Origin: Styela clava
Lineage: Eukaryota > Chordata > Ascidiacea > Stolidobranchia > Styelidae
Length of the DNA stretch: 64,000 nt
Direction: 5' to 3'
NCBI RefSeq assembly: GCF_964204865.1
Contig: NC_135263.1
Span: 684,501-748,500, forward strand
A program made the position numbers and the translations under genes. The notes beneath the pieces are model-generated. The model was not told the DNA's origin. It was given only the letters and a program-made list of their open reading frames with translations, and searched no databases. Below, piece after piece: positions 47 through 26,527 of the stretch. The stretch's first letter is position 1, and each line of letters begins with the position of its first letter.

Positions 47-872
47 ATAAGTGTGACGTCACATACAAGAAAAAATGCTACCGAGCAGTTGTGTATGATG
101 TGGCCAACGTTACCTTCACCGATGCCAAAGCAATCTGCAAATCAATGAACGGAAAAGCCGCGAATATTTACGACCTCAAGCATTACCAGCTGCTGATCCC
201 TTATCTACGTTCACTGATTCCTGCTGGTGAGCCAGGGATGTACATCTGGACTGGGATGGAGTATAAGGTCAGTTGATAGATCACAATCTCAGCAAAGTTT
301 GACTCATTTTTGTAAACTTCATTTTGGGTACAATTTACCAAAAGCGGTTTATTATTAAAAGTATCAAATGATGGGCAGGTTAACGATGCCTTATTGTTAA
401 TTTGGGCGATTAATAAAAAAAAATATTAAACATGATTTCCAAGATATTATGACGTCATATCCGAGTCGTCCGATCGCGTTTTTTTTAATTTCCAAATATT
501 TTAGCATTTTTAATTCATTAATTTCTGCTTTTTACCCATTTTTATGTAACGTTACCCCTATTACCTTTACTATGGAGCCTATTCCTACACGCAAATATTT
601 TCATTCTTCATCTAATATGTCAGTTGTATTAACATTTCAAGCAATAGATTTTAAAACTGTTTATTCAATTGTGACAGAACAATCAGCTTTTGCTGTCCAA
701 TGGAAGACCAATCACTATAGCAACAGAAGTGTGGCATCCTTCTTATCCGGGATCCGAAGCATCGCGGACAAATGTTGGTGTTGGTGTCGATAAAGATCCA
801 GAGTCTGCATATCAGGGAATGTTCAATGTTCCACCATCCTACAGAACCTACGGTGTCATCTGTGAAATATAA
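47..872 (+). CDS. C-type-lectin-like protein, 3' part (last two exons)
   Basis: Two exons, 47-267 and 678-872, correspond to exons 5 and 6 of the complete paralogue at 20464-22882; exons 1-4 lie left of the window. The first exon follows a TTTCAG acceptor and ends before GTCAGT; the second follows GTGACAG and ends in TAA at 870-872. Phases match the paralogue. The encoded part is a C-type-lectin-like fold: two closely spaced cysteines at its start, a third in an AICKS segment, an IWTGMEY segment where the family has its WIGL-type core, and a terminal VICEI cysteine. Compared with the paralogue it is 7 codons shorter in the loop before IWTG. I see no EPN, QPD or WND calcium-binding motif, so sugar binding is not assured. 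Probably secreted. Family placement is by pattern recognition only. Confidence 0.72.
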
Positions 873-1735
873 AACCAGATCAAAACCTGACAGAACTTCG
901 TTGACGATTCAATGATAAAAAAGACAAAAACAGTTAAATGACTGTTGTTATCTATATAGATTTTCATTAAAATTTTTGTTCGCTTTTCTATGGCCGTTGT
1001 TCTAAATGTTCTAGTTATGATAGGTCCATGTCTGATTACGCAAAATTTATAAGCTGCCCATAAACGATCTGAACTTAAATTACTCTTCAATTTTACTAAA
1101 TCGAATTTTTTTACAAAGTCTGTTTTTCAAGCCTTAAAACCCGATTTTATTTATGAAAGAAGTCTAAATTACGTGTTTATAAAAGTTAAATTACTAATAT
1201 TTTTACTTATGCATTTTTATTCCACACTGAAGCTGGCCTGTGAATATGATTAGACAAAGGTCATACAAGTATGTTCGTCCTAATATAAATGAAACTTGCT
1301 TTTTACTTAATATTACTCCCTTGCAGTGGCAGAATTCAAAAATCTAAGAACGGGTTCTCTATTGCATCGAACTCGCTAACAACGGGTTCTCTCATCTTAG
1401 AGAAACATGCTGAACTAAATCATGAAAAATACAGGAACGGTTTACAAGAGCCCCTTGAATCCTGCCACTGCTTACTTATATATTGTTTCTATACTATTAT
1501 TTTATTATTAACCGTATAACCCATGCCTTGAACTGGTCGCCTTGTCTATTGAAACGTATTTGCTAAGTAAATAAATTCATAGCTGTCTCCATGTGATTTC
1601 TGTATATAACCAAACATGATAATAAACATTGATTCGATCATTTTTGGGTTTCTTCGTTCTTGTTCTGAAACAGTGAGTCAGTTATTGGAGAAGCGAATGA
1701 AACCAGATATCTGGGAAATGTGTTGAATCTACCCT
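873..1735. repeat. 3' flank of lectin-like gene, segmental duplication copy A
   Basis: No coding potential. This stretch is closely similar, with small indels, to 22883-23762 downstream of the second lectin-like gene, so it belongs to the same gene duplication. Similarity fades near 1735. It holds a short internal repeat (two nearby copies of AACGGGTTCTCT at about 1348 and 1381) and AATAAA-like signals near 1570 and 1620 that could end the transcript. Confidence 0.75.
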
Positions 1736-4645: not shown

Positions 4646-4880
4646 TGTCATGAATATCTTCATGTAAGCAGTACAAAAGTTAACGAGACTTGTACTATTT
4701 GTAAGATGATATTTATGACGTCATTATTAATGCTATACTTGTCACCTTTGACCTTGCTTGCTTGCTCTCTCTCTCTGCTTGTGCTGCTAGATGTTGAGTG
4801 CTGTGATCTATGATGTCTATGTTATATCTATAATATACTCAAGCATCCTGAATAGTTGTGTATTTACCCACAAACAAACA
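4646..4880 (+). repeat. Candidate 5' LTR of the Gypsy element
   Basis: Bounded on the left by TGTCATGA and on the right by ...CAAACA directly before the primer-binding-site-like sequence, that is TG...CA ends. It contains a CT-rich microsatellite near 4766 and a TATA-like stretch near 4825. No second LTR exists in the window, so the left border is inferred from the TG rule only. Confidence 0.45.
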
Positions 4881-4898
4881 TGGTGTCAGAATCGGGGT
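4881..4898 (+). other. Primer binding site of the LTR element
   Basis: TGGTGTCAGAATCGGGGT directly follows the putative LTR end. TGG plus a tRNA-3'-end complement at this position is the usual minus-strand primer site of LTR retroelements. I do not assign the tRNA. Confidence 0.5.
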
Positions 4899-4959
4899 TG
4901 ATGTAAAGTTGCTTGAAAAAAATATTCTAAAAATCGCGTCAGTGAGCAATCAATTAAGG

Positions 4960-5562
4960 ATGGCTGATTCGTCGTTGAACAGACCAGATCCACTGATTTT
5001 TGATGGAAATGTTGCTGAAAACTGGAGAATATTCGTACGTGAATATGATATTTTCATCGGAGCACTGCACAGTGATAAAACTGACAAAGCTAAAGCTTGC
5101 ATATTACTTAATTTGATTGGGAAAGAGGGCAGAGAAAAAGAAGAATCTTTTACATATGAGGCAGCTGAAGGTGACGTTCCTGCTGAGTCTCGTGATGATC
5201 CAGAATGCCTGAAGAGAAAATTTGCAGAAATATGCCTACCCAAGTCAAACATAGGACTAACAAGACATCACTTCAACACAAGAGCACAGATGCCAGGTGA
5301 ATCTATCCAATCATTCGTTGTAGACTTGAAAAACAAAGCCAAGTCTTGTGAATTTGGTGATCTCAAAGATGAGTTGATTAAAGACAGATTTTTGACTGGC
5401 GTTCATAATGATAACTTGCGAAGGCAATTGCTAAAAGAAGCTAATCTTACATTGAAAAAAGCTATTGATATATGTGTAATATATGAACTTACAAATGAGA
5501 GAATGAAATCCCTATCGATGAATAGTCATAGTCAAGTTTATTTTTTCCAACCAGTAAAATAA
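4960..5562 (+). pseudogene. gag: Gypsy gag, N-terminal part, cut by LINE insertion
   Basis: The open frame begins upstream at 4858, but the ATG at 4960 gives the MADSSLNRPDPL start expected for this gag family. The encoded capsid-like region is rich in charged residues, with the typical FVREYDIFI segment near its start and LKNKAKSCEFG in the middle. True gag sequence ends at 5523; residues after that come from the inserted LINE read antisense, and a stop follows at 5560-5562. The remainder of gag, with its zinc knuckles, resumes at 15927 in the same reading frame. Role: structural protein of retrotransposon particles, now split. Confidence 0.8.
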
Positions 5563-6490
5563 TAAATGATGCAAAAAATAAGCAAAAATTCAAGAACATA
5601 ATTTTACTGGGGAAGGGAAGCCGTGGGGAACCAAAGTAGGTTATCTAGCAGCGGCACCCAAGATTCAACTATTTAATTAACATATAATTTTAGTAGATCA
5701 ATATAGCATAGAATAGTTTAGCCGTAAATATTTACTAATACGGTTTTAACGAGAAATCGTCATGACACTAGGGTGTATCTGAGAGCCACGCAATACATCA
5801 GATAGTAATTTGGGGTATTCCCCGTTTCGTAGCTTACAGGCAGTGAACAAAAGCGTGTTATGGGGAAATATTCGGGAATTTGTAGTGGCTCAGTTATCAC
5901 AACCAAATTATGATAATCATCAGTTGTAGTGGACGGACAACGGGAGACAATGAAGAAAGAACAGGTATAAATGACATAAATCTACTGAAGCAGATGTTAA
6001 CCAGCCGCACAGTACCGTACCGGTAACTCGAATATGAAATACCGTACGGTACCGGTAACGTGATGAATAATATTCTATCGTCTGTACAGACGCACTGGAC
6101 TGCACAATATAACAAAAAAGAAACAATGTGACTAGGTGTTGAAGTGTCGTTTCAAGTGTGTAATAAAAAAAGTTACTTTCAACATGACAAATGCTGAGAT
6201 TTGCAATATATCTGTATATATATAATACTAAGTTCATAGCTACTGAACTACAACAATGACTTGAGAACCCATATCTAATTCAAGTTAAGGGGAGTGGGAA
6301 TCAAATGAAACGAGTATATTTCGGTAAATCTGGCATGAGATTGGCATGTTGTAAAAAAAAAATAAATAAACACAAATAGTGTTAAAAATTTGTTAGACAA
6401 TGAACCATCAGAAGTACATACTAATATTATGGACCGAGTTAATAGCTCATATTATGTTGAATTGATTTCAGGGTTTGGAAAGACCTGTCC
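5524..6490 (-). other. LINE 3' UTR (copy 1), no gene
   Basis: About 970 bp between the gag break point and the ORF2 stop. Only shadow ORFs. It contains inverted GTACCGGTAAC motifs around 6013-6060 and a 10-bp inverted repeat (CCAGTAAAAT near 5551, ATTTTACTGG near 5601) close to the element's 3' end. There is no clear poly-A tail. The same sequence recurs at 10649-11615. Confidence 0.6.
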
Positions 6491-9400
6491 TCATTTGAGA
6501 TACTTGGACCAAAGAAATTTTTTCATCTTCATTTTAAACAGAGGATAAGACATGCTTCGCATTTCACCAGGTACGGCATTCCACATAATCGCACCTGTGT
6601 ATTTGAGTGATTTTTGTGTCTTTGAGTAGGTTTGGCGTGGTACAAAGTAGGATGACAATGCAGATGATCTAGTATTGTGATCGTGAACACTACTCTGCTT
6701 TACAAAGTATTTAGAAAATGCCTGTGGAAGGCAACAATTATGGTATTGATGCATTAATTTAAATATTTCTAGTTTGTAGATATCATCAAGTTTGAGTACG
6801 CCAGTTTTATGGTACATGGTATTCATGTTAACACGAGTGGACGGTCCATATAGGATTCTAATGGCTCTATTCTGTAAAACGTTTATAGCTCTTAAGGTCG
6901 CTTTAGTGGCAGATCCCCAGGCAGCAATTGCATATTGGATGTAAGTCTGGAAAAGTGAATAATATACCACTTTGAGTGTACTCCGGTCTGTGTAGTGTTG
7001 AAGTTTGCTTAGTATACCTATTGAGCGTGAAAGTTTTTTATGTAACTCTTTGACATGCAGATCCCACCGTAAACGGTGATCAATGTTCAATCCAAGATAT
7101 TTGTACGAGGGAACAGATTCAAGTTCAGTTTCATTCATTTTGATTATCAGAGGTGTTTTCTGATCGTTGCAACCAGGACGTATATGGACTACTTTAGATT
7201 TTTCTATATTGATAGTTAGCTTATTACAGAGCATCCAATCATAGACCTTTTTTAATTCTAGGTTGAAGCAATTTTGAAGATCAGTCGATGATTTGGAACT
7301 ACCTAGGAGACCAGTATCATCCGCGAACAATTTTGTCAACAAATTCGAACATCGTGAGATGTCGTTTATAAATACGAGGAATAATAAAGGGCCAAGTGAA
7401 GAGCCTTGGATCACACCGCAGTCAATAGGAAGAACCTCCGAACGATTATTTTCGACTTCCACATATTGGAATCGGCCATGTAGGTAATCTTTTAAAAGAG
7501 AATTAGCACAACCTCGCACACCGTAATGATGAAGTTTGCGTAAGAGTATGTTATGACTTACGGTATCGAAAGCTTTTTTCAAATCTAAGAAAGCACAGCA
7601 GACATGTTCTCCCTTTTCATATTTGTCATAGATATATTCAATTAGATCAATAATTGCATGACTTGTCGAATGATTTGTCTGAAATCCGAATTGGAATTTA
7701 TTAATTAGTTTGTTTTTTTCGAAAAATTCAGTTAATCTACAGTACAAAAGTTTTTCGAAGACAAATGCCAAACATGATAAGACAGATATAGGTCGGTAAT
7801 TAGATGGGTTAGTTTTGTCGCCGGATTTGTACAATGGAATAACTCTGGCAAGTTTCAGTGCAGATGGAAATATACCTATTCTTATAGACGTATTAAAAAA
7901 ATGTGCAATAACTGGCGAGATTATGTCAGCAATTTTCTTCAAGAAATGTGAAGAAATATCATAAGCACCGGCAGCTTTACCTATTTTTAAAGCTGAGATG
8001 GTATTGAATATCTCAGTCGCATTAGTTGACCGTAAATATAAAGAATCTTTTATAGGGGCACCGAGAAAGCTCATGAAATTTATATTCGTTTGTGGAACTT
8101 CATTTATTAAACTTTTCCCAATGTTTGAAAAAAATTTGTTAAGTTCGTTTGCGATTGTGTGGCTGTTTTTTGTTTTGAAACCATTTTCAAGTTTCAATTC
8201 AGATATTGATGAATCATTTGCTGGTTTTGTGTTTACAATCTCTTTGACAGTCTGCCATGTATGTTTAATATCACCTCTGTTATTGGCTAATTTTGATAAA
8301 TAATGAATTTGCTTTGATTTTCTTAATAAGTGAACTAGAGTGTTATGATATTTTTTGTAGAGTGCACGTTCACTTGGAGAGCCATGTAAATAATATTTTT
8401 TGTGCATTTTACTCTTACGATTGATGGATTTATGGAGACCCTTTGTAATCCAGGGCTTTGAAAGCAGTTTAGATTTTTTACGCGAGCATGCGACCATGGG
8501 GGCATGGGTATTGATTAGGTCCTTTAATGAAGATAAAAAAATACCAAAAACTTCATTGAAGTTCTCAGTTGACAGTTGTGTCAATACAAATCCATTTAAT
8601 ATATTACGAGCACTGTATCTAAATATTTCTGTGTCAAAATTGGACATTTTGCGTTTCAGGTGAGTTTTGAATTTGTATTTAGGTGCACTAGTAAAAGAAA
8701 AAGATGACATAACAGGAAAGTGATCTGATATGTCATGCAATATAATATAAGATGATGAACAACGATCAATTGCATTTGTGTAAATGTGATCAATTAATCA
8801 ATTAAAGTATGCGAAGTGGAAGTTACTCTTGTTGGACGCGTTATGGTGGGAATAGCCAGGTGAGACAGAAGCATGTCGGTGTACCGAGTTGTCAAATTAT
8901 CGTGAGCTATTAGGTTGATATTCAAATCACCTAAAATTATGAATGGGTTTCTCGAATTTTCTAATTTGTAAAGTAGCGAGTCCATTGTTTCTGTGAAATT
9001 AGAAAGGTCAGGTCTGGGATGTTTATAAATAGCACCAATAATCAATTTTTTTTGGTTGATGGTGGGCGATTCATTGACCTGAATCCACAAATCTTCACAA
9101 TGAGGAAAATTTAGATTATACTCATGGGATTCTATGAATGACACATCAGAGCGTATAAAGAGCCCAACTCCTCCAGCTTTAGTAGGAGAGGCAGAGTGAA
9201 CAAAGTTGTAGCAGTCAATATGTATAGGGCTAATAGGGGATGTGCTTAATCTGGTTTCGCTAATCGCAATAATATGGGGGAGTTTCTGAAAGTTTGTCAG
9301 CATTTGTATCAGATCATCAATATGCTTTGACAGTGATCTTACATTTAGGTGAAGAAGAATAAAATCGGTCGACTTATACTGAGATGAAACTATCCCAATG

Positions 9401-9648
9401 TTAGCGAACTCTACATATTTACTTGTAATGGGGCCTACAGTTGGAGACAAACTGAAAGATTCCCAAGAGGGCAAGACTGGACAGGTAAGGCCTTTTGAAT
9501 CAAGGCACATTTGGCAGAAGTAGCTAGAACTAGGGAATGGCAAAGTTATGCAAGTAAAGTGAAATTTAAGATTACACGATTTGCAACATATATATGAATC
9601 ACTACGATATGAAGAATGACATACTGAACATAAGGTATCAGATGTCAT
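6491..9648 (-). pseudogene. LINE ORF2 copy 1: PHD finger, endonuclease, reverse transcriptase
   Basis: Identical to the ORF2 at 11616-14773. The endonuclease part (8794-9648) and the reverse transcriptase part (6491-8740) are separated by a stop and frame change at 8789-8804, where ATCAATTA is repeated twice. Domain details are given for copy 2. As in copy 2, all recognisable catalytic motifs remain in the two frames. Confidence 0.88.
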
Positions 9649-9701
9649 GGATAATTATGGAAGTATAGAAAAAATGAAGGCATAATGAAAAATAGTCTAA
9701 C

Positions 9702-10098
9702 CTATTTGATTTTTTGAAGATCTTCTTCTTCAAGAATATCTAAGGTGTTCGTCAATTTATTCTTTCGTATTCTGACTTTGCCGTTAGTGGTCCATAAATA
9801 TGCGTAACCACACTTATTCTTTAGAGCTTTTGCTTTAAAAAATAAGTCCTTGTTGCGATTGGTCAAGTTTTCAGAAATGAAGACTTTTGAAGTGTCTTTG
9901 ATGTTTATAGTGTTTGGTGCAGACTTCAAATTTTTGCGGCCGGCGAAAATTTTTTTGGCGAATTCTCCGGTTAGTAAATCGGACAATGATGGGGGGATGG
10001 TTTTTGCGATTGCGAGTAGGGAACCGATGACTAAACGAGATGTCACTCGGATGAATGTTTACTTTTATGAGCTTTGAAATCTCCAGCACCAGCTTGTC
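9702..10098 (-). pseudogene. LINE ORF1 copy 1, C-terminal fragment
   Basis: Encodes the RNA-binding C-terminal region of ORF1 (see copy 2) and carries the same 7-nt T run that shifts the frame (9950-9956 on the + strand). Its N-terminal coiled-coil part is missing because the tandem duplication joins this point to gag sequence. Confidence 0.8.
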
Positions 10099-10687
10099 GT
10101 TGAACAGACCAGATCCACTGATTTTTGATGGAAATGTTGCTGAAAACTGGAGAATATTCGTACGTGAATATGATATTTTCATCGGAGCACTGCACAGTGA
10201 TAAAACTGACAAAGCTAAAGCTTGCATATTACTTAATTTGATTGGGAAAGAGGGCAGAGAAAAAGAAGAATCTTTTACATATGAGGCAGCTGAAGGTGAC
10301 GTTCCTGCTGAGTCTCGTGATGATCCAGAATGCCTGAAGAGAAAATTTGCAGAAATATGCCTACCCAAGTCAAACATAGGACTAACAAGACATCACTTCA
10401 ACACAAGAGCACAGATGCCAGGTGAATCTATCCAATCATTCGTTGTAGACTTGAAAAACAAAGCCAAGTCTTGTGAATTTGGTGATCTCAAAGATGAGTT
10501 GATTAAAGACAGATTTTTGACTGGCGTTCATAATGATAACTTGCGAAGGCAATTGCTAAAAGAAGCTAATCTTACATTGAAAAAAGCTATTGATATATGT
10601 GTAATATATGAACTTACAAATGAGAGAATGAAATCCCTATCGATGAATAGTCATAGTCAAGTTTATTTTTTCCAACCAGTAAAATAA
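10096..10687 (+). pseudogene. Gypsy gag fragment, duplicated copy
   Basis: Second copy of the gag segment 4971-5523 (here 10096-10648), lacking its own start codon and all upstream LTR and primer-site sequence. The open frame is continuous from 10055 because antisense LINE ORF1 sequence happens to supply an ATG and leader in frame, giving a 210-residue chimeric ORF ending at 10687. It is a by-product of the duplication; expression is not indicated. Confidence 0.82.
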
Positions 10688-11615
10688 TAAATGATGCAAA
10701 AAATAAGCAAAAATTCAAGAACATAATTTTACTGGGGAAGGGAAGCCGTGGGGAACCAAAGTAGGTTATCTAGCAGCGGCACCCAAGATTCAACTATTTA
10801 ATTAACATATAATTTTAGTAGATCAATATAGCATAGAATAGTTTAGCCGTAAATATTTACTAATACGGTTTTAACGAGAAATCGTCATGACACTAGGGTG
10901 TATCTGAGAGCCACGCAATACATCAGATAGTAATTTGGGGTATTCCCCGTTTCGTAGCTTACAGGCAGTGAACAAAAGCGTGTTATGGGGAAATATTCGG
11001 GAATTTGTAGTGGCTCAGTTATCACAACCAAATTATGATAATCATCAGTTGTAGTGGACGGACAACGGGAGACAATGAAGAAAGAACAGGTATAAATGAC
11101 ATAAATCTACTGAAGCAGATGTTAACCAGCCGCACAGTACCGTACCGGTAACTCGAATATGAAATACCGTACGGTACCGGTAACGTGATGAATAATATTC
11201 TATCGTCTGTACAGACGCACTGGACTGCACAATATAACAAAAAAGAAACAATGTGACTAGGTGTTGAAGTGTCGTTTCAAGTGTGTAATAAAAAAAGTTA
11301 CTTTCAACATGACAAATGCTGAGATTTGCAATATATCTGTATATATATAATACTAAGTTCATAGCTACTGAACTACAACAATGACTTGAGAACCCATATC
11401 TAATTCAAGTTAAGGGGAGTGGGAATCAAATGAAACGAGTATATTTCGGTAAATCTGGCATGAGATTGGCATGTTGTAAAAAAAAAATAAATAAACACAA
11501 ATAGTGTTAAAAATTTGTTAGACAATGAACCATCAGAAGTACATACTAATATTATGGACCGAGTTAATAGCTCATATTATGTTGAATTGATTTCAGGGTT
11601 TGGAAAGACCTGTCC
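10649..11615 (-). other. LINE 3' UTR (copy 2), no gene
   Basis: Duplicate of 5524-6490. It ends at the ORF2 stop codon. Only antisense shadow ORFs are present. Confidence 0.6.
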
Positions 11616-14600
11616 TCATTTGAGATACTTGGACCAAAGAAATTTTTTCATCTTCATTTTAAACAGAGGATAAGACATGCTTCGCATTTCACCAGGTACG
11701 GCATTCCACATAATCGCACCTGTGTATTTGAGTGATTTTTGTGTCTTTGAGTAGGTTTGGCGTGGTACAAAGTAGGATGACAATGCAGATGATCTAGTAT
11801 TGTGATCGTGAACACTACTCTGCTTTACAAAGTATTTAGAAAATGCCTGTGGAAGGCAACAATTATGGTATTGATGCATTAATTTAAATATTTCTAGTTT
11901 GTAGATATCATCAAGTTTGAGTACGCCAGTTTTATGGTACATGGTATTCATGTTAACACGAGTGGACGGTCCATATAGGATTCTAATGGCTCTATTCTGT
12001 AAAACGTTTATAGCTCTTAAGGTCGCTTTAGTGGCAGATCCCCAGGCAGCAATTGCATATTGGATGTAAGTCTGGAAAAGTGAATAATATACCACTTTGA
12101 GTGTACTCCGGTCTGTGTAGTGTTGAAGTTTGCTTAGTATACCTATTGAGCGTGAAAGTTTTTTATGTAACTCTTTGACATGCAGATCCCACCGTAAACG
12201 GTGATCAATGTTCAATCCAAGATATTTGTACGAGGGAACAGATTCAAGTTCAGTTTCATTCATTTTGATTATCAGAGGTGTTTTCTGATCGTTGCAACCA
12301 GGACGTATATGGACTACTTTAGATTTTTCTATATTGATAGTTAGCTTATTACAGAGCATCCAATCATAGACCTTTTTTAATTCTAGGTTGAAGCAATTTT
12401 GAAGATCAGTCGATGATTTGGAACTACCTAGGAGACCAGTATCATCCGCGAACAATTTTGTCAACAAATTCGAACATCGTGAGATGTCGTTTATAAATAC
12501 GAGGAATAATAAAGGGCCAAGTGAAGAGCCTTGGATCACACCGCAGTCAATAGGAAGAACCTCCGAACGATTATTTTCGACTTCCACATATTGGAATCGG
12601 CCATGTAGGTAATCTTTTAAAAGAGAATTAGCACAACCTCGCACACCGTAATGATGAAGTTTGCGTAAGAGTATGTTATGACTTACGGTATCGAAAGCTT
12701 TTTTCAAATCTAAGAAAGCACAGCAGACATGTTCTCCCTTTTCATATTTGTCATAGATATATTCAATTAGATCAATAATTGCATGACTTGTCGAATGATT
12801 TGTCTGAAATCCGAATTGGAATTTATTAATTAGTTTGTTTTTTTCGAAAAATTCAGTTAATCTACAGTACAAAAGTTTTTCGAAGACAAATGCCAAACAT
12901 GATAAGACAGATATAGGTCGGTAATTAGATGGGTTAGTTTTGTCGCCGGATTTGTACAATGGAATAACTCTGGCAAGTTTCAGTGCAGATGGAAATATAC
13001 CTATTCTTATAGACGTATTAAAAAAATGTGCAATAACTGGCGAGATTATGTCAGCAATTTTCTTCAAGAAATGTGAAGAAATATCATAAGCACCGGCAGC
13101 TTTACCTATTTTTAAAGCTGAGATGGTATTGAATATCTCAGTCGCATTAGTTGACCGTAAATATAAAGAATCTTTTATAGGGGCACCGAGAAAGCTCATG
13201 AAATTTATATTCGTTTGTGGAACTTCATTTATTAAACTTTTCCCAATGTTTGAAAAAAATTTGTTAAGTTCGTTTGCGATTGTGTGGCTGTTTTTTGTTT
13301 TGAAACCATTTTCAAGTTTCAATTCAGATATTGATGAATCATTTGCTGGTTTTGTGTTTACAATCTCTTTGACAGTCTGCCATGTATGTTTAATATCACC
13401 TCTGTTATTGGCTAATTTTGATAAATAATGAATTTGCTTTGATTTTCTTAATAAGTGAACTAGAGTGTTATGATATTTTTTGTAGAGTGCACGTTCACTT
13501 GGAGAGCCATGTAAATAATATTTTTTGTGCATTTTACTCTTACGATTGATGGATTTATGGAGACCCTTTGTAATCCAGGGCTTTGAAAGCAGTTTAGATT
13601 TTTTACGCGAGCATGCGACCATGGGGGCATGGGTATTGATTAGGTCCTTTAATGAAGATAAAAAAATACCAAAAACTTCATTGAAGTTCTCAGTTGACAG
13701 TTGTGTCAATACAAATCCATTTAATATATTACGAGCACTGTATCTAAATATTTCTGTGTCAAAATTGGACATTTTGCGTTTCAGGTGAGTTTTGAATTTG
13801 TATTTAGGTGCACTAGTAAAAGAAAAAGATGACATAACAGGAAAGTGATCTGATATGTCATGCAATATAATATAAGATGATGAACAACGATCAATTGCAT
13901 TTGTGTAAATGTGATCAATTAATCAATTAAAGTATGCGAAGTGGAAGTTACTCTTGTTGGACGCGTTATGGTGGGAATAGCCAGGTGAGACAGAAGCATG
14001 TCGGTGTACCGAGTTGTCAAATTATCGTGAGCTATTAGGTTGATATTCAAATCACCTAAAATTATGAATGGGTTTCTCGAATTTTCTAATTTGTAAAGTA
14101 GCGAGTCCATTGTTTCTGTGAAATTAGAAAGGTCAGGTCTGGGATGTTTATAAATAGCACCAATAATCAATTTTTTTTGGTTGATGGTGGGCGATTCATT
14201 GACCTGAATCCACAAATCTTCACAATGAGGAAAATTTAGATTATACTCATGGGATTCTATGAATGACACATCAGAGCGTATAAAGAGCCCAACTCCTCCA
14301 GCTTTAGTAGGAGAGGCAGAGTGAACAAAGTTGTAGCAGTCAATATGTATAGGGCTAATAGGGGATGTGCTTAATCTGGTTTCGCTAATCGCAATAATAT
14401 GGGGGAGTTTCTGAAAGTTTGTCAGCATTTGTATCAGATCATCAATATGCTTTGACAGTGATCTTACATTTAGGTGAAGAAGAATAAAATCGGTCGACTT
14501 ATACTGAGATGAAACTATCCCAATGTTAGCGAACTCTACATATTTACTTGTAATGGGGCCTACAGTTGGAGACAAACTGAAAGATTCCCAAGAGGGCAAG

Positions 14601-14773
14601 ACTGGACAGGTAAGGCCTTTTGAATCAAGGCACATTTGGCAGAAGTAGCTAGAACTAGGGAATGGCAAAGTTATGCAAGTAAAGTGAAATTTAAGATTAC
14701 ACGATTTGCAACATATATATGAATCACTACGATATGAAGAATGACATACTGAACATAAGGTATCAGATGTCAT
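11616..14773 (-). pseudogene. LINE ORF2: PHD finger, endonuclease, reverse transcriptase
   Basis: The upstream frame (14773 down to 13919, 284 aa) starts with a C4HC3 PHD-type finger: C7, C10, C22, C25, H30, C33, C45, C48. An AP-type endonuclease follows, with AISETRLS, GGVGLFIR, IIGAIYKHP and GDLNINL segments. After a frame break the SDHFPV catalytic motif opens the second frame (13865 to 11616, 749 aa), which carries the RT: FLDLKKAFD with D386, GVIQGSSLGP near 442-451 and FADD at 472-475. The break is a tandem 8-mer, ATCAATTA at 13914-13921 and 13922-13929 on the + strand, adding 8 nt and a stop. Role: target-primed reverse transcription of the LINE RNA. Without the 8-nt repeat the frames would join, so the lesion looks recent. 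Confidence 0.9.
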
Positions 14774-14826
14774 GGATAATTATGGAAGTATAGAAAAAAT
14801 GAAGGCATAATGAAAAATAGTCTAAC

Positions 14827-15835
14827 CTATTTGATTTTTTGAAGATCTTCTTCTTCAAGAATATCTAAGGTGTTCGTCAATTTATTCTTTCGTATTCTGA
14901 CTTTGCCGTTAGTGGTCCATAAATATGCGTAACCACACTTATTCTTTAGAGCTTTTGCTTTAAAAAATAAGTCCTTGTTGCGATTGGTCAAGTTTTCAGA
15001 AATGAAGACTTTTGAAGTGTCTTTGATGTTTATAGTGTTTGGTGCAGACTTCAAATTTTTGCGGCCGGCGAAAATTTTTTTGGCGAATTCTCCGGTTAGT
15101 AAATCGGACAATGATGGGGGGATGGTTTTTGCGATTGCGAGTAGGGAACCGATGACTAAACGAGATGTCACTCGGATGAATGTTTACTTTTATGAGCTTT
15201 GAAATCTCCAGCACCAGCTTGTCAGTATCTTCATTTGGTAATGGTGGTACTCCGTGGAACTCTAAGTTCTCAAGCCTGGAGCGTCTTTCCTGATCCTCTA
15301 CATGCTCCGTTAAATACCAAAGATCTTCTTCGAGATCCAGGACAAGATCTTCTAAATATTGAATTTTTTTGTTTTGCAATTTTAGCTGCTCATCAACTGT
15401 TTTTTGGTGTATTAACAGATCATCAAACTTCTTGGATTGAAATGTTTGAGAATTTTTGATGATTGACAGTTCATCTTTAATCTCCTTCATGGATTGGGAT
15501 TGATTATCCATAAACTCTTTTAGTCCTGGACTCATTGGTAAGTATTCCGAAGAGCTATTCAGAGTATTGAAATTTTCTGAGATACAACGAGCAATGATGC
15601 TCGGAAGTTGTATTTCTATATTTTTCTGAATGGTATTTTGAATCTTAGATAAGCATAGAGGAGATACAGTTGGTGATGAAGGCTTCGTTCCTTTATGACT
15701 CGAGGAGGATGTAGTTGCGGAATCTGGTTGAGGCAGCAGCGGCATGATTGGTGACAGCCCAGGGTCTGATAGAATATACTCGCTTGTTGGTTTGGGAGCA
15801 GCTGGTTCTTGAGATTTTTTCTTCGTTCTTGTCAT
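14827..15835 (-). pseudogene. LINE ORF1: coiled coil and RNA-binding region, frameshifted
   Basis: The start at 15835 opens a 279-aa frame: a basic N-terminus, a coiled-coil-like region near residues 105-190 (LKLQNKKIQYLEDLVLDLEE), then RSRLENLEFHGVP and IIVRFTNRR segments typical of the RRM-like core of LINE ORF1 proteins. The frame is lost at a 7-T run (15075-15081 on the + strand). The expected continuation (IFAGRKNLK, then VFISENLTNRNKDLF and YLWTTNGKVRIRK) is in the next frame, down to 14827. Role: nucleic-acid chaperone that coats the LINE RNA. The single-base difference in a homopolymer may be a real lesion or a base-call error; it is the same in copy 1. Confidence 0.82.
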
Positions 15836-15926
15836 TTTTAGATGTTGAGTATTTTATAGTAATTAAATTAATTAGATATAGCTGGAATCTTAATCAAAAC
15901 AGCAATAATCAATCAAAACAGCAATA

Positions 15927-18011
15927 ATGAATGCAACGAAAGAAGTTGATTCTGTATCTCACCATAAAAGAAACACACGCTATAGTCCGAAATTTAGACC
16001 TAACAAGTTCGAGAAGAACAATAGAACATTTCGTGCAAATAATGACAAATTTTATAAGCCTGATTGTCATTTTCAGAGTGTGTCTAAATTTAATTCTGCT
16101 TGCCAGTATTGTGGTTTAAATCATACTAAATCACGTGATTCTTGTCCAGCATTTGGCAAGAAGTGTAATTTTTGTCACAAAATGAATCATTTTCAAAGAA
16201 TGTGCTTTATTAAAAGTGGTCAATCAAAAGAATGTCATAGATCTTCATATGATGTTCATGGCAATCAAAACCAGACCCCAGTTCATGAGGTTAATGACAT
16301 GTATACTGCTGATCATTTTTATGTTGGTTCATTTGATTGTGTCAATTCAGTTAAGACTACTGGTCCTGATGAAGCTTTTGCTGGTTTATATGTGAATAAC
16401 AACCATGTCAAACTCAAAATTGATACTGGTGCTAAGTGTAATGTCCTACCATTGCATATTTTCAATTGTGTCAGATCTGATGAAAAGATTGACAAGAGAA
16501 ATCCTGCAATTTTGATTGGTTATGGGTCTAGTAATAGAATTCCTACAATTGGATCTGTTGTTATAAAATGTATTTTCCGTAGTAATGTCCCATATTTGCT
16601 TAAATTTCAAGTTGTTGATAGAAATGTCACACCTATTCTTGGAATTAATGATTGTTTAAATTTGAATGTTCTTTCTTTGAATGTGCATGAGTTGAAACCC
16701 CAAAGTGTTCCCTCTGTACTTTCGCCCGAGTCCGTTCAAAAATATGTTGAAAATAACTTTTCTGATCTGTTTGATGGTAAGCTAGGTGAATTGCCTATTA
16801 CTTATCACATGAAACTTCGATCTGATGCACAGCCAGTGATCAGACCTCCCAGAAAAGTTCCTGTTGCAATGCAGAAACTTGTGAAACAAGAGTTAGATAA
16901 AATGGTTGCCAATCAGATTATTTTACCAGTTGACGAACCAACTGAATGGGTGTCAAGCATGGTAGTCACAAAGAAAAAATCTGGTGCCATTCGTATTTGT
17001 TTAGATCCTACTTTATTGAATACATATATTTTACGTGAGCATTATCCAATGAGAAATATTGAAGATATTGTTGCCACAATGCCCAATGCTAAATATTTTG
17101 CTGTATTATATGCATCTTCTGGTTTTTGGCAGATTAAGCTTGATCATGAATCCTCACTGAAAACTACCTTTAACTCACCTGTTGGTAGATTTCGTTTTTT
17201 GCGTATGCCATTTGGAATTTCGTCTTGCCCAGAAGTGTTTCAGAAGGCTATTGATCAACTTTTTGATAAGCTACCCTGTCGTATTGTTGTTGATGACGTT
17301 CTAATTTGGGGCTCGACTGAGAAAGAATTATTTGATCGTATTTTGCTTATACTTGAAAGAGCTAGAGAAGTCAGTTTGAAATTGAATTTGTCCAAATGTA
17401 AGTTTATGACACAAGAAGTTGAATATTGTGGTCATATTTTGACTTCGAATGGTTTAAAACCATCTCCTCGAATTACCCAAGCTATTCGTAATATGCCAGA
17501 GCCTACTGATAAACATTTTTTGCATCATTTTATTGGAATGATTACTTACCTTGCTAAATTTTTGCCAAAATTGAGTGAACATACTGCTAATTTACGTTTA
17601 TTGCTTAGAAATGATGTTAAATGGTATTGGAATGAAAATGAACGTAATGATTTTCATATGCTCAAAATTATGCTTTCTAATATGCCAATTTTGAAATTTT
17701 ATGATTGTAACAAAAGTGTAACTTTAACATGTGATGCATCCCAGAAAGGGTTGGGAGCTGCTTGTTTACAAGATAATGTACCCATTGGTTATGTGTCCCG
17801 TGCATTAACCGATACTGAAACAAGGTATGCACAAATTGAAAAAGAACTTCTAGCTGTTGTTTTTGCTTGTGAAAAATTTCATCATTATATATATGGTAAA
17901 AAGATTTTAATTGAATCTGATCATAAACCCCTAGAATCTATATTGTCGAAACCTTTTCTGAGTGCACCTCTCAGATTGCAAAAAAATGATGTTACGTTTA
18001 CAAAAGTATGA
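15927..18011 (+). pseudogene. pol: Gypsy gag zinc knuckles, protease, reverse transcriptase, RNase H
   Basis: A 694-aa frame continuing gag after the LINE insertion. Residues 59-73 form a C-X2-C-X3-H-X6-C knuckle and 80-93 a canonical CX2CX4HX4C knuckle. Protease active site DTG at 166-168. RT: SGAIRICLDP near 353-361 and VVDD at 454-457. Motif A reads VLYASSGFW with Y395 (codon TAT, 17109-17111) where the family has the catalytic aspartate. RNase H: LTCDAS near 600, then the IEKELLAV and IESDHKPLE segments. The frame is lost at a 7-A run, 17980-17986; similarity continues one frame over at 17983-19182. The enzyme would be inactive even without the frameshift. Confidence 0.88.
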
Positions 18012-19182
18012 TTTGAAAATTATTTATAAAAAAGGTACTGAAATGTATATTGCTGATACATTGTCACGAGCATATGTTTCAAATGATAAACTTGTTGATA
18101 TTATGCATAATTATGATGATTTTGATATTTTGACAATTGTTTCTATTTCCCCACCAAGAGCACATGAGTTGGTTGAAAAAAACAGGACTGATCAAACATT
18201 ACAAGAACTGATTAAAATTATCAAGCATGGATGGCCTAATTCTGTAAAAAGTTTGCCAATCCAAGTTCAGAAATATTTTCCATTTCGAGATGAACTCATT
18301 GAACATGATGGTGTTGTGTACAAGTCAAATAAAGTTGTTGTTCCCGAGTCATTACAACAAGAATACATTGCACAAATACACCGAGGACATATAAATGTTG
18401 AATCCACAAAGAATCGTGCACGTGATTATTTGTTTTGGTGCAATATGTCCAAAGATATTGAAGAAGCTATTTCACATTGTTCTGTTTGCAATAGTCTGAA
18501 GAATCATCAACAGAAAGAACCATTGAAATTACATGAAATTCCTGATCGTCCATGGTCTATTCTAGCTACAGATATATTTCACTGGTATGGAAGTGAACAC
18601 TTAGTACTTGTTGACTCTTATTCTGGATGGTTTGAAATTAACCACTTGCCTGATATTTCCTCATATACTGTTATAAAGAAACTGAAAGAACATTTTGCTA
18701 GATTTGGCAGTCCAGATGTACTGTTCATTGATAGTGGTCCCCAATATTCGTCGCTTCTTTTCAAAGAATTTGCTAGAGAATGGCAATTCAAACATGTTAT
18801 GAGTAGTCCTGAATTTCCTCAAAGTAATGAACTAGCTGAAAATGCTGTAAAACAATCTAAAAATTTATTGGAGAAATGCAGACGAGATCGATCTGATCCT
18901 TACCTTGCTCTATTAAATATTCGAAATGTGCCTAGAGATAAAATACTTGGTTCTTCTGCACAACGTCTATTATCACGTCGAACAAAAGGTGACATACCTA
19001 TATCAAAGAATTTGTTGAATCCTGAAATGAGAAGTCCAAAAGAAGTGCATGATCAATTGCTGCACAAAAGAAGCCAACAAAAGAAATATTTTGACAAGTC
19101 TTCAAAACTGCTACCTAATTTGAACACTGGTGATATAGTGAGAATGCAAACTAAAAAAGGATATGACAAGAAAGGTATCATA
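17983..19182 (+). pseudogene. Gypsy RNase H end and integrase, 3'-truncated
   Basis: The open frame runs 17962-19347 but is element-derived from about 17983. After the RNase H end (YDLKIIYKKG, ADTLSRAY), the integrase begins with an HHCC zinc-binding domain (HRGH, then CSVC). A DDE core follows, with D in LATDIFHW, D in LFIDSGPQ and E in ELAENAVK. The tail reaches GDIVRMQTKKGYDKKG and then loses resemblance near 19182; the last 55 codons are unrelated downstream DNA. Role: insertion of retrotransposon cDNA. The integrase C-terminus and 3' LTR are missing. Confidence 0.85.
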
Positions 19183-19359
19183 TGCCAGAATTATCACTTA
19201 CCTCTGATTCCTCTTCTTGGGCTCGTTACCCGTGGAGGCCTGGAAGATAATTTATTGTATACCGTCTTATCGATCTCTTTTCCTCGTTTAATCCTAAATA
19301 TTTCCAGCACAACAGATATTCAGATGTCAATCGTGGAAATTTGGTGAATCAGTAATGGA

Positions 19360-19565
19360 ATGATCAGAGATTTTCTCCGGGTTAAAGGTCGTCGGAAATT
19401 GATTGATTTCCGAATTGTTTCCACGAGAAGTTTCACATCTTTACCCAAATCAAAGCTTCTTGAAATCAGACACTGAAAGCCCGATCATAATGCAAAAAGA
19501 GTTCCAAAACCTTAATTTTATATTTTGTAGAGATTTTATGGCATATGGCAGTTATAAATTGAATA
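19360..19565. repeat. Diverged repeat, copy 1 of a pair
   Basis: Resembles 19835-20025 in the same orientation: shared blocks are GGGTTAAAGGTC/GGGTCAAAGGTC, a GTTTCCA(C/T)GAGAAGTTT block, a GAAAGCCCG block and ATTTTATGGCATAT. Family unknown. No gene lies between 19183 and 20463 except these repeats and the promoter region. Confidence 0.6.
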
Positions 19566-19834
19566 GAGACAGGAATGTGTAAATCTGGTAGTTGTGATGT
19601 GAAGAAGTTCTAGTAAAAGATCGTCAGAGTGATTGCCAGGTCTGCAGTGTATGATTGATATTTGTGGTTCGCTCAGGTTAGTTCGTTGGATCATGCGTAA
19701 TTCAATCAACTTTACGAGAAGAGTAATTAAAATTGAAAGAACATTTGAGTTCCAGTAGACTTGGAATTATTTAGGTGGCTCACCAACTAATATCCTAAAT
19801 CGTTTCCTTAAATATTAATAATGTTACTGCGTCT

Positions 19835-20025
19835 TTTTCCACAAGATTTTTTCTGGGTCAAAGGTCACTGAAAATTAATTGATTTTCGGGGTGTTTCCAT
19901 GAGAAGTTTACATCTTTACCACAAAAATTCATAAAATCTGACGCTGAAAGCCCGTTCTAATGCAAAATGAAATCGAAAATCTTGATTTTTTATTTTGTAG
20001 AAATTTTATGGCATATCTAGGGGGT
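19835..20025. repeat. Diverged repeat, copy 2 of a pair
   Basis: Second copy of the 19360-19565 repeat, about 475 bp downstream. It precedes the lectin-like gene by about 430 bp. Confidence 0.6.
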
Positions 20026-20380
20026 TTAATTGGCAGCCATTTTTAAAGAAACAAATTGCCTGTGCCTGTACCATAAGACCAGAATATTTCCTTGTTTCGA
20101 TCGAGTGCGGGCTTCAATATCAAACTAATGGGCGCTCCGGATGGATGCACCTGGTTTTCTTCGCATGATGGGTGATTCATAATCACTTTTTGTCGCCAAG
20201 CAAAATGAATTTCAATGTGACAGAGGAAATGACGTAAATGATGGTTGCTACGCGAAGACGGGTTCAGGATTAAACGGTGATAAAATGCGCAGTAAGATAT
20301 TATTGATAAGACTTGAAATATGAGGACTAGCAGGAGTAGCAAATCTCAATTTAGTCATCTATTGATGGCGGCACCGAACA

Positions 20381-20463: not shown

Positions 20464-22882
20464 ATGGACTTCGTCAAAATTATTTTGTTCATCTCTCTCA
20501 TCTATGGATTGTATGCGAAGCAAAAAGTACCCGGTAAGATTTGTTTCAGATAAAATCACTGTTATATTTTGTAACACTGAATTGCATGTCTGGTTTCTGA
20601 TACCAAGAATGCTACAATACCGGAGATTCCTAAATCATTTATTAATATCATTCTCTATCAGTGTTGCAATTGGCGCAAGATGTCGTTATATTTGACTTTA
20701 CGTTTTATTTTTGACAGCTGGAGCCTGCGTTTCCAAGATCGTGAATGGGAAACTCGTTCAAATTGGAGATTGCGAGGTAAAATTACAGTTGCTATTTTTT
20801 TAATCGGGCATTTTCACACTTCGACTCCAAACAAGGCTTTGAGCAAGCCGGCAACGATCTCTCTAATTAGCGACATCTAGAACACAAGAAGGAAAACATA
20901 AATTGTTAATTCTAAATTGTTACGTGGGTAGTAATTAGCCCCGCCAGCCGCGATTTGGGAACCACTGTTTAAGAAACGCTAATTTTTCAACTGACTGGAA
21001 GCTTTTATTTTTTTAATCGCGTAAACAATTTTAAATCCGACTTCTGCATGCATGTCACGCAAATAATAAAATCTGATACAACTTACGTGTTATAATTACT
21101 TTACCAATCGTTTGCATTTTTTATTTATTTCACAGAAAAACGATGGATCCGGTGAGTTCTTCCTACTCTATGATGTGTTTTGGGTTCACAAATAATTACC
21201 CTGCACTAAACATATGACTTTGATTCATATTTACGCACGGGTTCAAAATAAACTGTCAAAGAGTAATAGTTTTCAATTAAGACTTTTAATTCCGAATTAG
21301 ACTCTTATTTGGTGAAACGCCGCTTTCTAAAATTTTTCTGGCAATGCATTTCAATTGCCTGTAATTTTCAATCTTGTGAAAAGTTTGGCAAAACTCAGTC
21401 ACAACAATTTTTGTGACTATTATTATATATCAGGATTGATAAATTCTAGATCTGGACTTTGCTGAAAAAAAAAAATTAACAACGCTTTTATATGCTGTTG
21501 TCATATTATGGTTAGTTAAAGGTATTTAATGTCATACGAGAAAAAATAACATTGCAAGACTGATTTAAAAACGCCTTTCCTTACTCACAAATAAATCAAT
21601 TTTCTTACAGATATCGTCAGACTGATTAAGAAGAGTCGTGATGAGAAGATAAAGGCTGAAAGTAATTTATATTTTTGTTTTATGATTTGACTAAAATATG
21701 CCACACCCGCCAAGCGCTAGAAATGGATGTCGCGTGGGTTTGAAAATAGATTTAATTCACCTAATATTACAAGTATTGGAATCCTGGTCGTAGCTGCGCG
21801 ATTAACCCACCAACAGTCGGTTACGACTCCGTCCACCGCCATACATCTGAACTTGCAATCTGTTCCGCCGTTCTTAGTTCGTCTTATCGGCTTTTTTCTC
21901 CTAGAAATAATAGATGCCAAGACAAACTCGCATTGAACTAACAAACCGACTTTTATTCCCAGATTCTATGACGTCATTTACGAAATTGTCTTTTTTTTAA
22001 ATTAAATATTCAATGACTACAATAATGTTTTCAGCTAAGTGTGACGTCACATACAAGAAAAAATGCTACCGAGCAGTTGTGTATGATGTACGGAATGTTA
22101 CCTTCACCGATGCCAAAGCAATCTGCAAATCAAAGAACGGAAAACCCGCGAATATTTACGACCTCAAGCATTACCAGCTGCTGCTCCCTTATCTACGTTC
22201 ACCGATTCCTGGTGGTGGTTGGCCATATATTGCCGGTCAGATATTGATGCGGATCTGGACTGGGATGGAATATAAGGTCAGTTGATGGATCACAATCTCA
22301 GCAGAGTTTGACGCATTTTTGTAAACTTCATATTGGGTCGATTTATCAAAAGCGGTTTATTATTAAAAGTATCAAATGATGGGCAGGTTAACGATGCCCC
22401 ATTGTTAATTTGAGCGATTGATAAAAATTAAAAATATTAAATGATTTCCAAGATATTATGACGTCATATCCGAGTCGTCCGATCGCGTTTTTTTTAATTT
22501 ACAAATATTTTAGCATTTTTAATTCATTAATTTCTGCTTTTTACCCATTTTTATGTAACGTTATCCCCTATTACCTTCACTACGGAGCCTAGTCCTACAC
22601 GCAAATATTTTTATTCTCCATCTAATATGTCAGTTGCATTATCATTTCAAGCAACAGATATTTAACCTGTTCATTCAATTGTGACAGAACAATCAGCTTT
22701 TGCTATCCAATGGAAAACCAATCACTATAGCAACAGAAGTGTGGTTTCCTGATTATCCGAGTCCCGAAGCATCGCGGACAAATGTTGGTGTTGTTGTCGA
22801 TAAAGATCCAGAGTATGCAGATCAGGGAATGTTCAATCGTTCACCATCCCACTCATTCCACGGTGTCATCTGTGAAATATAA
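20464..22882 (+). CDS. Secreted C-type-lectin-like protein, 210 aa, six exons
   Basis: Exons 20464-20533, 20718-20776, 21136-21151, 21611-21661, 22035-22276 and 22688-22882 all have GT-AG borders and join in phase to 633 nt. Residues 1-18 form a hydrophobic signal peptide (FVKIILFISLIYGLYA). Cysteines sit at 27, 42, 68, 76, 96 and 208. The lectin-like domain runs from about C68 to the end: AICKS at 94-98, IWTGMEYK at 139-146, GVICEI at the C-terminus. The central disulfide pair and the EPN/QPD/WND calcium motifs of sugar-binding lectins are not visible, so ligand and calcium dependence are unknown. A paralogue's last two exons lie at 47-872; shared introns and 3' flank show a gene duplication that the Gypsy/LINE complex now separates. 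The 3' UTR probably ends after an AATAAA-like signal near 23597 or 23645. Confidence 0.82.
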
Positions 22883-23762
22883 AACCAGATCAAAACCTGA
22901 CAGAACTTTGTTGACGATTCAATGATAAAAAAGACAAAAACAGTTAAATGACTGTTGTTATCTATATAGATTTCATTAAAATTTTTGTTCGCTTTTCTAT
23001 GGCCGTTGTTCTAAATGTTCAAATTATGATAGGTCCATGTCTGATTATGCAAAATTTATAAGCTGCCCATGAACGATCCGATCTTAAATTACTCTTCAAT
23101 TTCACTAAATCGCATATTTTTACAAAGACTGTTTTCCAAGCATTAAAACCTTTAAAACGTGATTTTATTTATGAGAGGAGACTAAATTACGTGTTTATAA
23201 AAGTTAAATTACTGATATTTTTACTTATGCATTATTATTCCACACTGAAGTTGGCCTGTGATTAGAATTAGACAAAGGCCATACAAGTATGTTCGTCCTA
23301 TTATAAATGAAACTTGCTTTTTACTTATTATTACTCACTTTCAGTGGCAGAATTCAAAAAACTAAGAACGGGTTCTCTATTGCACCGAACTCGCTAACAA
23401 CGGGTTCTCTCATTTTAGAGAAACATACTGAACTAAATCATAAAAAAACAGGAACGGTTTGCAAGAGCCTCTTGAATCCTGCCACTGCTTACTTATATAT
23501 TGTTTCTATACTATTATTTTATTATTAACCGTATAACCCATGTCTTGAATTGGTCGCCTTGTCTATTGAAACGCGTTCAGTTTATATATTCAGTTAATAA
23601 ATTCATAGCTGTCTCCATGTGATTTCTGTATATAACCAAACATGATAATAAACATTGATTCGATCAGTTGTTGGTTTTTTTTGTTCTTGTTCTGAACCAG
23701 TAAGTCAGTTATTAGAGAAGCGAATGAAAACCGGATATCTGAGAAAGGCGTTGGGTCTACTT
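22883..23762. repeat. 3' flank of lectin-like gene, segmental duplication copy B
   Basis: Partner of 873-1735; non-coding. It keeps the AACGGGTTCTCT short repeat and the late AATAAA-like signals. Similarity to copy A fades near 23760. Confidence 0.75.
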
Positions 23763-24581: not shown

Positions 24582-26527
24582 ATGGCATCGATTGTGTCAA
24601 GCAGCTCGCGGGGAACTAGAATCGCAAGAGTGTATAATGCTAATGATATTCTTGTCATTTTCAACTGTGATGATAATGATGCTGGAGGCACTAGTAGTGG
24701 GTCAGATAGTGAATACGATATCAGAAAAGACGAAAACAACAGCTCCCAGGTTCATAATATTTTCAAATATTGATTACATAGTTTCTTCTCACGATCAATT
24801 ATCGCTCACAGACACCGAAAATAGTTTCTGACAAATATCTTTCTCACTCATTGATCGAAACCATAAATAATATTGTTTTTTGTTTTCATTTCATGATATT
24901 TCATTTTACAGGTCGAGTCCGAAAGTTCTGACGACGACATTCCTTTGACGAGTCTAGGAGTGCAAAATCAAAAACAAAGCCAAATAGAAAATGCAACCGA
25001 CCGCAATGAGTTTCGGTGGAGAAAGAAACAATTCGACAGACCTGATGCAACATTCTCCGGCCCCCAATTGGATCCTCCTGCTGACATGATTGTAGATACG
25101 CCATTGCGTTATTGCCGAGGTTTTGTGACAGAGGAAATGCTGCAACTTCTGACAGAACAAACAAATCTCTACATTGTTCAAAAGAATGGTATTTTGGTCA
25201 AAACAAACAAAAAGGAAATTGAGCAGATATTAGGAATGTATTTGCACATGGGTATAGTGCAGATGCACAGTGTTAGAATGTATTGGGAAACTTCAACATT
25301 TTTTGAACCAGTGAGTGGAGTGATGTCTCGCAACCGCTTTCAAACATTGCTGAGAATTCCGCATTTTGTAAACAATTTGACTGTGTCTGACAACGAAAAA
25401 CACTCTGACAAGCTATGGAAGATTTGTCCATGGCTAACAATGTTCAAAGATGCATGCTTACAGGTTACAGCCGAGGAATACAACTCTGTTGACGATATGA
25501 TGTGCCAGTATAAAGGCACGACAAGTTCCATACGTCAGTACCTGAAGAGTAAGCCTCATCCGTGGGGTTTTAAGATCTGGGGAAGGGGGATATGAGTGGA
25601 ATTCTATACGACTTTGATCTCTACCAGGGTGGTACCGGTGAACGCACAGAGTTAGGACAAGGTGCGGACGTTTTTCTCAAGCTGACATCAACATTGTCAT
25701 ACCATGCAAACTACAAGATATTTGCTGATAACCTTCTTAGCAGCTTTCCATTCATTCAAAAATTATCAGAGCGAGGAATGCATTATGTTGGGATCGTGAG
25801 AAAAAAACGTCTACCCAGCTGTAACCTGGACGATGAAAAAAAATTAAAGAAAAAGTCAGGGGGGATTATGACTTCAGAGTTGGGGAAAACAATAACATAG
25901 CCGTAAGATGGTATGACAACAGGGCAGTGTCACTACTATCTTCGTACGTAGGAGTGGAGCCAATTGATCAAATCAGACGATGGGACAGACGAACTAAACA
26001 GCATGTGTACATACCCATGCCTGCTATCGTGCAAGAATATAATAAGTTTATGGGAGGTATTGATAAATTGGATTCATTTCTTGCAAAGTACAGGTTTCGA
26101 ATGAAACCAAAAAAGATGGTATCTTTATCTCTTTTGGCATATAAAATAGTGACTATTGTGAATGCCTGGCTCTGGTACCGTCATGATTGTCCCCTGCTCC
26201 GTCTTCCAACGTCATATTTTATGAAACGGCGACATTTTCAAGCAGCAGTCGCAAGCGCTTTGATCTATGACCTATGTCAATACTAACACCCGTCGCGGGA
26301 GACCATCGTCTAAAGTTGAAGAAATTTGCAGCCTCTCAAGGTAATTATCCAAGGCCCCATGTGAAGATATCCGCCGAGACAAATACGCACACTGGCCAAA
26401 GAAAATTGAGAAAAGGGGAAGATGCAAATTGTGTGAACGCAATCAAATAAATACCAGCTGTTTAAAGTGTAAAGTGAGACTTTGTTTTGTCGAAGTTCGC
26501 AATTGTTTTATGACTTCCCACGCCTGA
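24582..26527 (+). pseudogene. piggyBac-type transposase, decayed
   Basis: A first exon 24582-24749 (acidic, serine-rich N-terminus) appears to join 24912 across a short intron. The DDE_Tnp_1_7-like core follows: YLHMGIVQMHSVRMYWE, MSRNRFQTLLR, then the first catalytic aspartate in SVDDMMCQYKG, then KPHPWGFKIWG. The frame shifts near 25585 and again near 25860, both in G runs. The second aspartate (FADNLLSSFPF) and third (WYDNRAVSLLS) lie in the following frames. YNKFMGGIDKLD and FRMKPKKM are typical piggyBac segments. Further breaks after 26283 precede a cysteine-rich C-terminal finger (CKLCERN, CLKC, LCF, NCF) ending at 26527. All three catalytic aspartates survive although the gene is broken. 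I found no terminal repeats. Confidence 0.85.

Follow-up and report, generated by a model that had tools for sequence, protein, structure and literature searches.

Background

Among the systems closest to the one reported here, many snaclecs have lost calcium binding, and tachylectin-2 has a fold that differs from the C-type lectin fold. Published work is cited in this report from excerpts of the papers. In these, the habu svCTLPs have a mean KA/KS of 0.871 and form gene clusters of five and nine (PMC6062510); CiCD94-1, a tunicate protein, is described as having no carbohydrate-binding capability (PMC5465252); coral tachylectin-2 is an invertebrate lectin with positive selection and high amino-acid diversity (PMC2880987); the variable proteins of diversity-generating retroelements (DGR) carry hypervariable residues on a C-type lectin fold (PMC5006420); and allorecognition occurs in ascidians, where the haemocytes of Halocynthia have been studied (PMC6916515).

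The family considered here belongs to an animal that we regard as a tunicate and shares its domain type with the tunicate C-type lectins (CiCD94-1, the MBL-like lectins and the Polyandrocarpa lectin, PDB 1byf). It is the subject of no title found in the open-access literature, a scope from which subscription papers mostly fall out. We observe that specific codons of its last two coding exons, exons 5 and 6, are positively selected across paralogues, while the other codons are constrained.

Results

Gene models. We regard the animal as a tunicate because its genome has, about 2 kb from each other and on the same strand, a match to cellulose synthase (C9:16177457-16177855, E 2.2e-4) and one to GH6 (C9:16179895-16180164, E 1.5e-6); cellulose synthase combined with a GH6 part is characteristic of tunicates. 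A search for COX1, meant to give the mitochondrial code, found none. The window, that is, the whole stretch of 64,000 nucleotides that was analysed (C18:684501-748500 of a 376.6 Mb assembly), contains two paralogues, which we call A and B. Their parts are as follows.

47..267, + strand: gene A exon 5, first half of the C-type-lectin-like domain (borders and open frame)
268..677, + strand: gene A intron 5, GTCAGT...TGACAG (5.7% different from B)
678..872, + strand: gene A exon 6, final coding exon including the stop, hypervariable (A-B alignment, site models)
873..1735, + strand: gene A 3' flank, probable 3'UTR (6.9% different from B)
20464..20533, + strand: gene B exon 1, start codon and, by eye, a signal-peptide-like N-terminus (splice sites and translation checked)
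20718..20776, + strand: gene B exon 2 (splice sites and translation)
21136..21151, + strand: gene B exon 3, a 16-base mini-exon (splice sites and translation)
21611..21661, + strand: gene B exon 4, charged stretch (splice sites and translation)
22035..22276, + strand: gene B exon 5, first domain half, with a 7-codon insertion (alignment, translation)
22688..22882, + strand: gene B exon 6, final coding exon including the stop, hypervariable (alignment, site models)
22883..23760, + strand: gene B 3' flank, probable 3'UTR (comparison with A and DNA search using B)

Gene B has six exons, GT-AG introns and a single open frame of 210 residues, which reads as a signal-like N-terminus, a short two-cysteine region, the charged stretch and one C-type-lectin-like domain. 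Gene A is truncated by the left edge of the window, and its earlier exons lie outside; exons 1, 2 and 4 were located upstream by similarity to B (segment L040). The frame is open across all six exons of B and across both exons of A within the window. In the alignment the homology between A and B breaks down after about position 1735. The sequence 5' of gene B (about 19250-20140 of the window) recurs several times 5' of gene A as imperfect repeats (L040 3740-7891).

The A-B pair. The ungapped alignment of 678-872 with 22688-22882 shows 21 differing bases among 195, as originally counted, and the 15 differing codons comprise 14 that change the residue and a single silent one (CTG/CTA at 693). 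By the NG86 method this corresponds to 19.5 nonsynonymous and 1.5 synonymous differences, with dN of 0.149 and dS of 0.032. The divergence claimed for the upstream intron (6-7%) is real and slightly overstated: 23 of 407 aligned bases differ (5.7%), and in the 3' flank 59 of 861 (6.9%). The indel of seven codons before IWTG was also found, as an insertion private to B among the 34 aligned copies of exon 5. Fisher's test gives p = 0.029 for nonsynonymous against synonymous change and p = 0.003 for nonsynonymous change against intron plus flank, in both cases with rounded counts and uncorrected for the fact that the pair was picked by eye.

The family. The family that includes A and B is large, both dispersed and tandem. 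A DNA search with B produced at least 89 matching stretches (40 of the 207 candidates were scored) and a protein search at least 157 matches (150 of 927 candidates scored); the 150 protein matches listed reduce to at least 95 places once starts lying within 2 kb of each other are merged. For the analysis below 37 copies from the same genome were read, drawn from the DNA matches rather than from the whole set, and 33 of the 37 are open in both final exons. The exceptions include a stop (L018) and a frameshift (L034) in exon 5, a copy that lacks the usual end of exon 5 (L019) and one without AG at the expected acceptor (L051); a further copy, L053, was read without the beginning of its exon 5. 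In L049 the intron preceding the final exon starts with GC in place of GT. The copies L013 (C18:491 kb) and L014 (C18:377 kb) are nearly identical at a separation of more than 100 kb: 5 of 900 bases differ in the flank and 1 of 477 in the intron, exon 6 is identical, and exon 5 has four differing sites, three of them residue-changing.

Codon site models. We used our own codon models of the Goldman-Yang type (F3x4, IQ-TREE trees), with site posteriors obtained by empirical Bayes at fixed estimates. The exon 6 set held 35 distinct sequences from the 37 copies (64 codons), and the exon 5 set 33 sequences (73 codons), L018, L019, L034 and L053 being excluded. For exon 6, M0 gave 1.27, with 2dlnL of 150.5 for M7-M8 and 131.0 for M8a-M8; M8 placed 31.6% of codons at a dN/dS of 3.92, and 18 of the 64 codons exceeded a posterior of 0.95. 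The corresponding values for exon 5 were 0.72, 100.4 and 92.6, with 8.9% of codons at 4.98 and 6 of the 73 codons selected. The diversifying selection proposed originally is thus supported across the family, at specific codons, by the M8a-M8 comparison in both exons and by the checks that follow. With the FastTree tree the M8a-M8 statistic was 148.3 for exon 6 and 116.4 for exon 5; the two halves of exon 6, each with its own tree, gave 33.3 and 100.7.

Multi-base codons, in which two or three bases have changed, somewhat exceed the model's prediction (0.245 vs 0.187, sd 0.027). When multi-nucleotide changes were allowed, M8a-M8 fell to 101.9 in exon 6 and 59.0 in exon 5, and 16 and 6 sites remained; we reject a multi-nucleotide artefact on the strength of this extended model. 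The family recombines and site models ignore recombination. In 24 data sets simulated from the M8a null of exon 6, where tips were shuffled at 0, 1 or 3 imposed breaks, the statistic never rose above 24.8, which answers this concern in part only. Recombination as a source of artefact is likewise countered, in part, by the halves of exon 6 and by sites learned outside the cluster, as follows. Site inference was repeated with A and B removed (33 sequences remain) and with A, B and nine others removed (24 remain), and both sets returned the same 15 sites of exon 6. Of the 14 residue changes between A and B, 11 hit the 15 sites learned from the 24 sequences, a set free of A, B and their chromosome-18 cluster (Fisher p = 5e-7). 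The pattern in the pair is therefore more than chance.

Pairwise and whole-exon ratios. The pooled pN/pS of exon 6 is 1.08 (bootstrap 0.77-1.51), with pN above pS in 314 of 496 pairs of 32 distinct copies; it is this low because conserved codons dilute the signal. Originally a dN/dS near or below 1 over more paralogues was to count against selection, a wording that is ambiguous here: the exon as a whole lies near 1, while the 18 codons above exceed a posterior of 0.95. For exon 5 the pooled ratio is 0.62 (0.44-0.85), and pN exceeds pS in 25 of 528 pairs (33 distinct copies). Within the chromosome-18-type set dN exceeds dS for exon 6 in 52 of 55 pairs, with two reversed and one identical, the pairs not being independent. 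Nine hand-picked close pairs gave, for exon 6, pN of 0.116 and pS of 0.082, against 0.082 in the intron and 0.095 in the flank; the pooled pN/pS of these hand-picked pairs is 1.4 (p = 0.058 for nonsynonymous vs synonymous, p = 0.003 for nonsynonymous vs non-coding), and in three of them pN is below pS. The excess of pN is thus weaker across all pairs and the close pairs, and for this reason we call the A-B pair an extreme example of the site-specific effect.

For the N-terminal exons 1, 2 and 4 pN/pS is 0.36, 0.44 and 0.30 (12, 18 and 21 copies), values biased toward conserved exons by detection through similarity to B. In the 11 copies with all parts the ratio is 0.42 for exons 1 and 2 together, 0.65 for exon 5 and 1.16 for exon 6. 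The pS at selected codons compared with other codons is 0.245 vs 0.177 in exon 6 and 0.206 vs 0.282 in exon 5. Since silent divergence is little raised at the selected codons and silent change shows no clustering at the variable ones, we reject a mutational hot spot.

Domain identity and the position of the variable codons. Judged by profile comparison, the final two exons encode a C-type-lectin-like domain. Pfam Lectin_C (PF00059) scores 25.1 bits for A and 20.5 bits for B, the latter below the cut-off of 22.6, and matches 10 of 14 members at E up to 1. The family profile aligned by hhalign with six canonical C-type lectin domains of the same genome at 92.2% (E 6e-7), and these canonical domains are matched by PDB 1byf. 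Against solved structures the family profile gave no match at E up to 1; B alone gave one match (RnfC, E 0.95), which is at chance level and was discarded. Invariant in the 14 aligned members are C30, W74-T75-G76 and C142, corresponding to the helix-1 cysteine, the WIGL-like motif and the terminal cysteine. The columns facing the canonical C94 and C110, which form the second disulfide, hold no cysteine in any of the 37 copies. This second (inner) disulfide varies within the C-type lectin superfamily, so we retain the family in it despite the loss.

At the position of the EPN glutamate 33 of the 37 copies have Y and none has E; the position of the EPN asparagine is a selected site in the register of the canonical-domain alignment. 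Of WND, 35 of the 37 copies retain the asparagine, and the aspartate position is again a selected site. By alignment the family lacks the combination of EPN/QPD and WND calcium ligands, and because of the losses in EPN and WND we refrain from classing it as a calcium-dependent lectin. Several selected codons align to the calcium/sugar site of classical C-type lectins, and four of the six selected codons of exon 5 lie in the loop preceding the W-T-G motif. We presume from these alignments that the variable positions would form one recognition face.

Other elements in the window. A Ty3-type retroelement (reverse transcriptase, RNase H, integrase) occupies 4852-19347, between genes A and B. A head-to-tail repeat of 5,128 bases (4971-10098 and 10096-15223, period 5,125) shows zero differences and is of very recent origin or else an artefact of assembly; it holds a LINE-type element and a frame that we guess to be gag-like (no Pfam match). 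The LINE-type element lies inside the Ty3-type one, and its endonuclease frame also matches a PHD-finger. The DDE_Tnp_1_7 (piggyBac-type) transposase is matched by two separate frames within 24897-26286, and since the match is split between them the element is probably a broken copy. There is a minisatellite of about 10 copies of 36 bases at 53388-53752. A frame at 51502-51876 matches Tho2 (THOC2, mRNA export); another, at 38309-38842, which has no Pfam match, perhaps resembles THOC2, as we assume.

Discussion

We believe it probable that the family constitutes a repertoire, encoded in the germline, of secreted recognition proteins that act independently of calcium and evolve under arms-race selection, most likely serving humoral or mucosal recognition of microbes. 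The domain would bind variable partners without calcium, each copy would represent one germline-coded specificity, and arms-race selection, together with duplication and ectopic exchange, may keep the repertoire diverse. As to the role, which we infer, it is probably immune, with self/non-self recognition as the second choice.

Segments have evidently moved between copies. Between A and L013 the divergence is 3.8% for the flank, against 19% for the intron; for L013 and L015 the values are 2.8% (intron), 3.9% (flank) and 11.5% (exon 6); B and L015 have 7 differences in about 660 bases after the stop, yet 19 in exon 6. The intron occurs as divergent types that do not track the flank, and this discordance, with near-identical flanks beside a divergent exon 6, makes it likely that copies duplicate and undergo gene conversion or unequal exchange while exon 6 stays diverse. 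It could be argued from the same exchanges that conversion has homogenised introns and flanks and spared exon 6, so that the exon merely looks fast; the observation that exon 6 distances in the chromosome-18-type set are far less variable than intron or flank distances would agree with this. The alternative of intron conversion, raised originally, is correct in that introns and flanks have been exchanged, and it fails to explain the low silent divergence within exon 6. Altered surroundings cannot split dN from dS inside one exon of 195 bases, where the A-B dS is itself well below dN; the site models draw on exon-internal silent changes only, and the null simulations with heavy recombination stay under the observed statistic. 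We consider this explanation improbable.

The few broken copies (L018, L034, L019 and L051) might suggest relaxed constraint after duplication and a pseudogene-like drift. Such drift raises dN/dS up to 1, against the value of about 4 at fixed sites, while most copies are open in both exons and the N-terminal exons that were detected are conserved, which makes it very unlikely in our opinion. Least credible of all appears a targeted mutator, of the kind that works in diversity-generating retroelements, altering the selected codons: the changes do cluster in few codons, multi-base codon changes are in mild excess, and DGR variable proteins also use the C-type lectin fold (as the excerpt of PMC5006420 has it), but the selected codons show no concentration of silent change. 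A rather more serious competitor, still unlikely, is that the proteins serve self/non-self or gamete recognition instead of immunity, the copies differing between individuals and marking or reading identity. The same sequence pattern would be expected then, and ascidians do have allorecognition (an excerpt of PMC6916515); in our judgement, however, many copies dispersed over at least 95 places look more like a defence repertoire than like a typed locus.

A bolder form of the repertoire proposal would combine several of these roles. About 100 or more secreted lectin-fold proteins would constitute an antibody-like germline repertoire, in which a hypervariable face, made diverse by selection together with ectopic exchange, would have taken the place of the former calcium site; individuals would differ, and the repertoire would serve both microbe recognition and self/non-self recognition. 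We regard this form as doubtful. The family bears on how invertebrate chordates, in which no antibodies are known, maintain diversity in specific recognition, and it offers a concrete and testable repertoire with its variable positions mapped.

Comparison with known systems

The snake venom C-type-lectin-like proteins resemble the present family in being multicopy, secreted and subject to accelerated evolution, as far as the excerpt of PMC6062510 describes them. The present family differs in that it is a tunicate, non-venom family with more copies (at least 95 places) and a different N-terminus; it also lacks the second disulfide, and its copies visibly exchange introns and flanks. The excerpt of PMC5465252 does not present the tunicate C-type lectins as hypervariable families, a difference from the present family. 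Coral tachylectin-2 combines positive selection with diversity, as our family does, and the excerpt of PMC2880987 makes no mention of a large paralogue array. The DGR variable proteins (Mtd and its kin), again according to the excerpt cited, have the same fold with hypervariable residues; in the present family, by contrast, the variation lies among germline paralogues under selection, and the silent sites bear no sign of a targeted mutator. The family would add an independent case of a C-type lectin fold with a hypervariable face.
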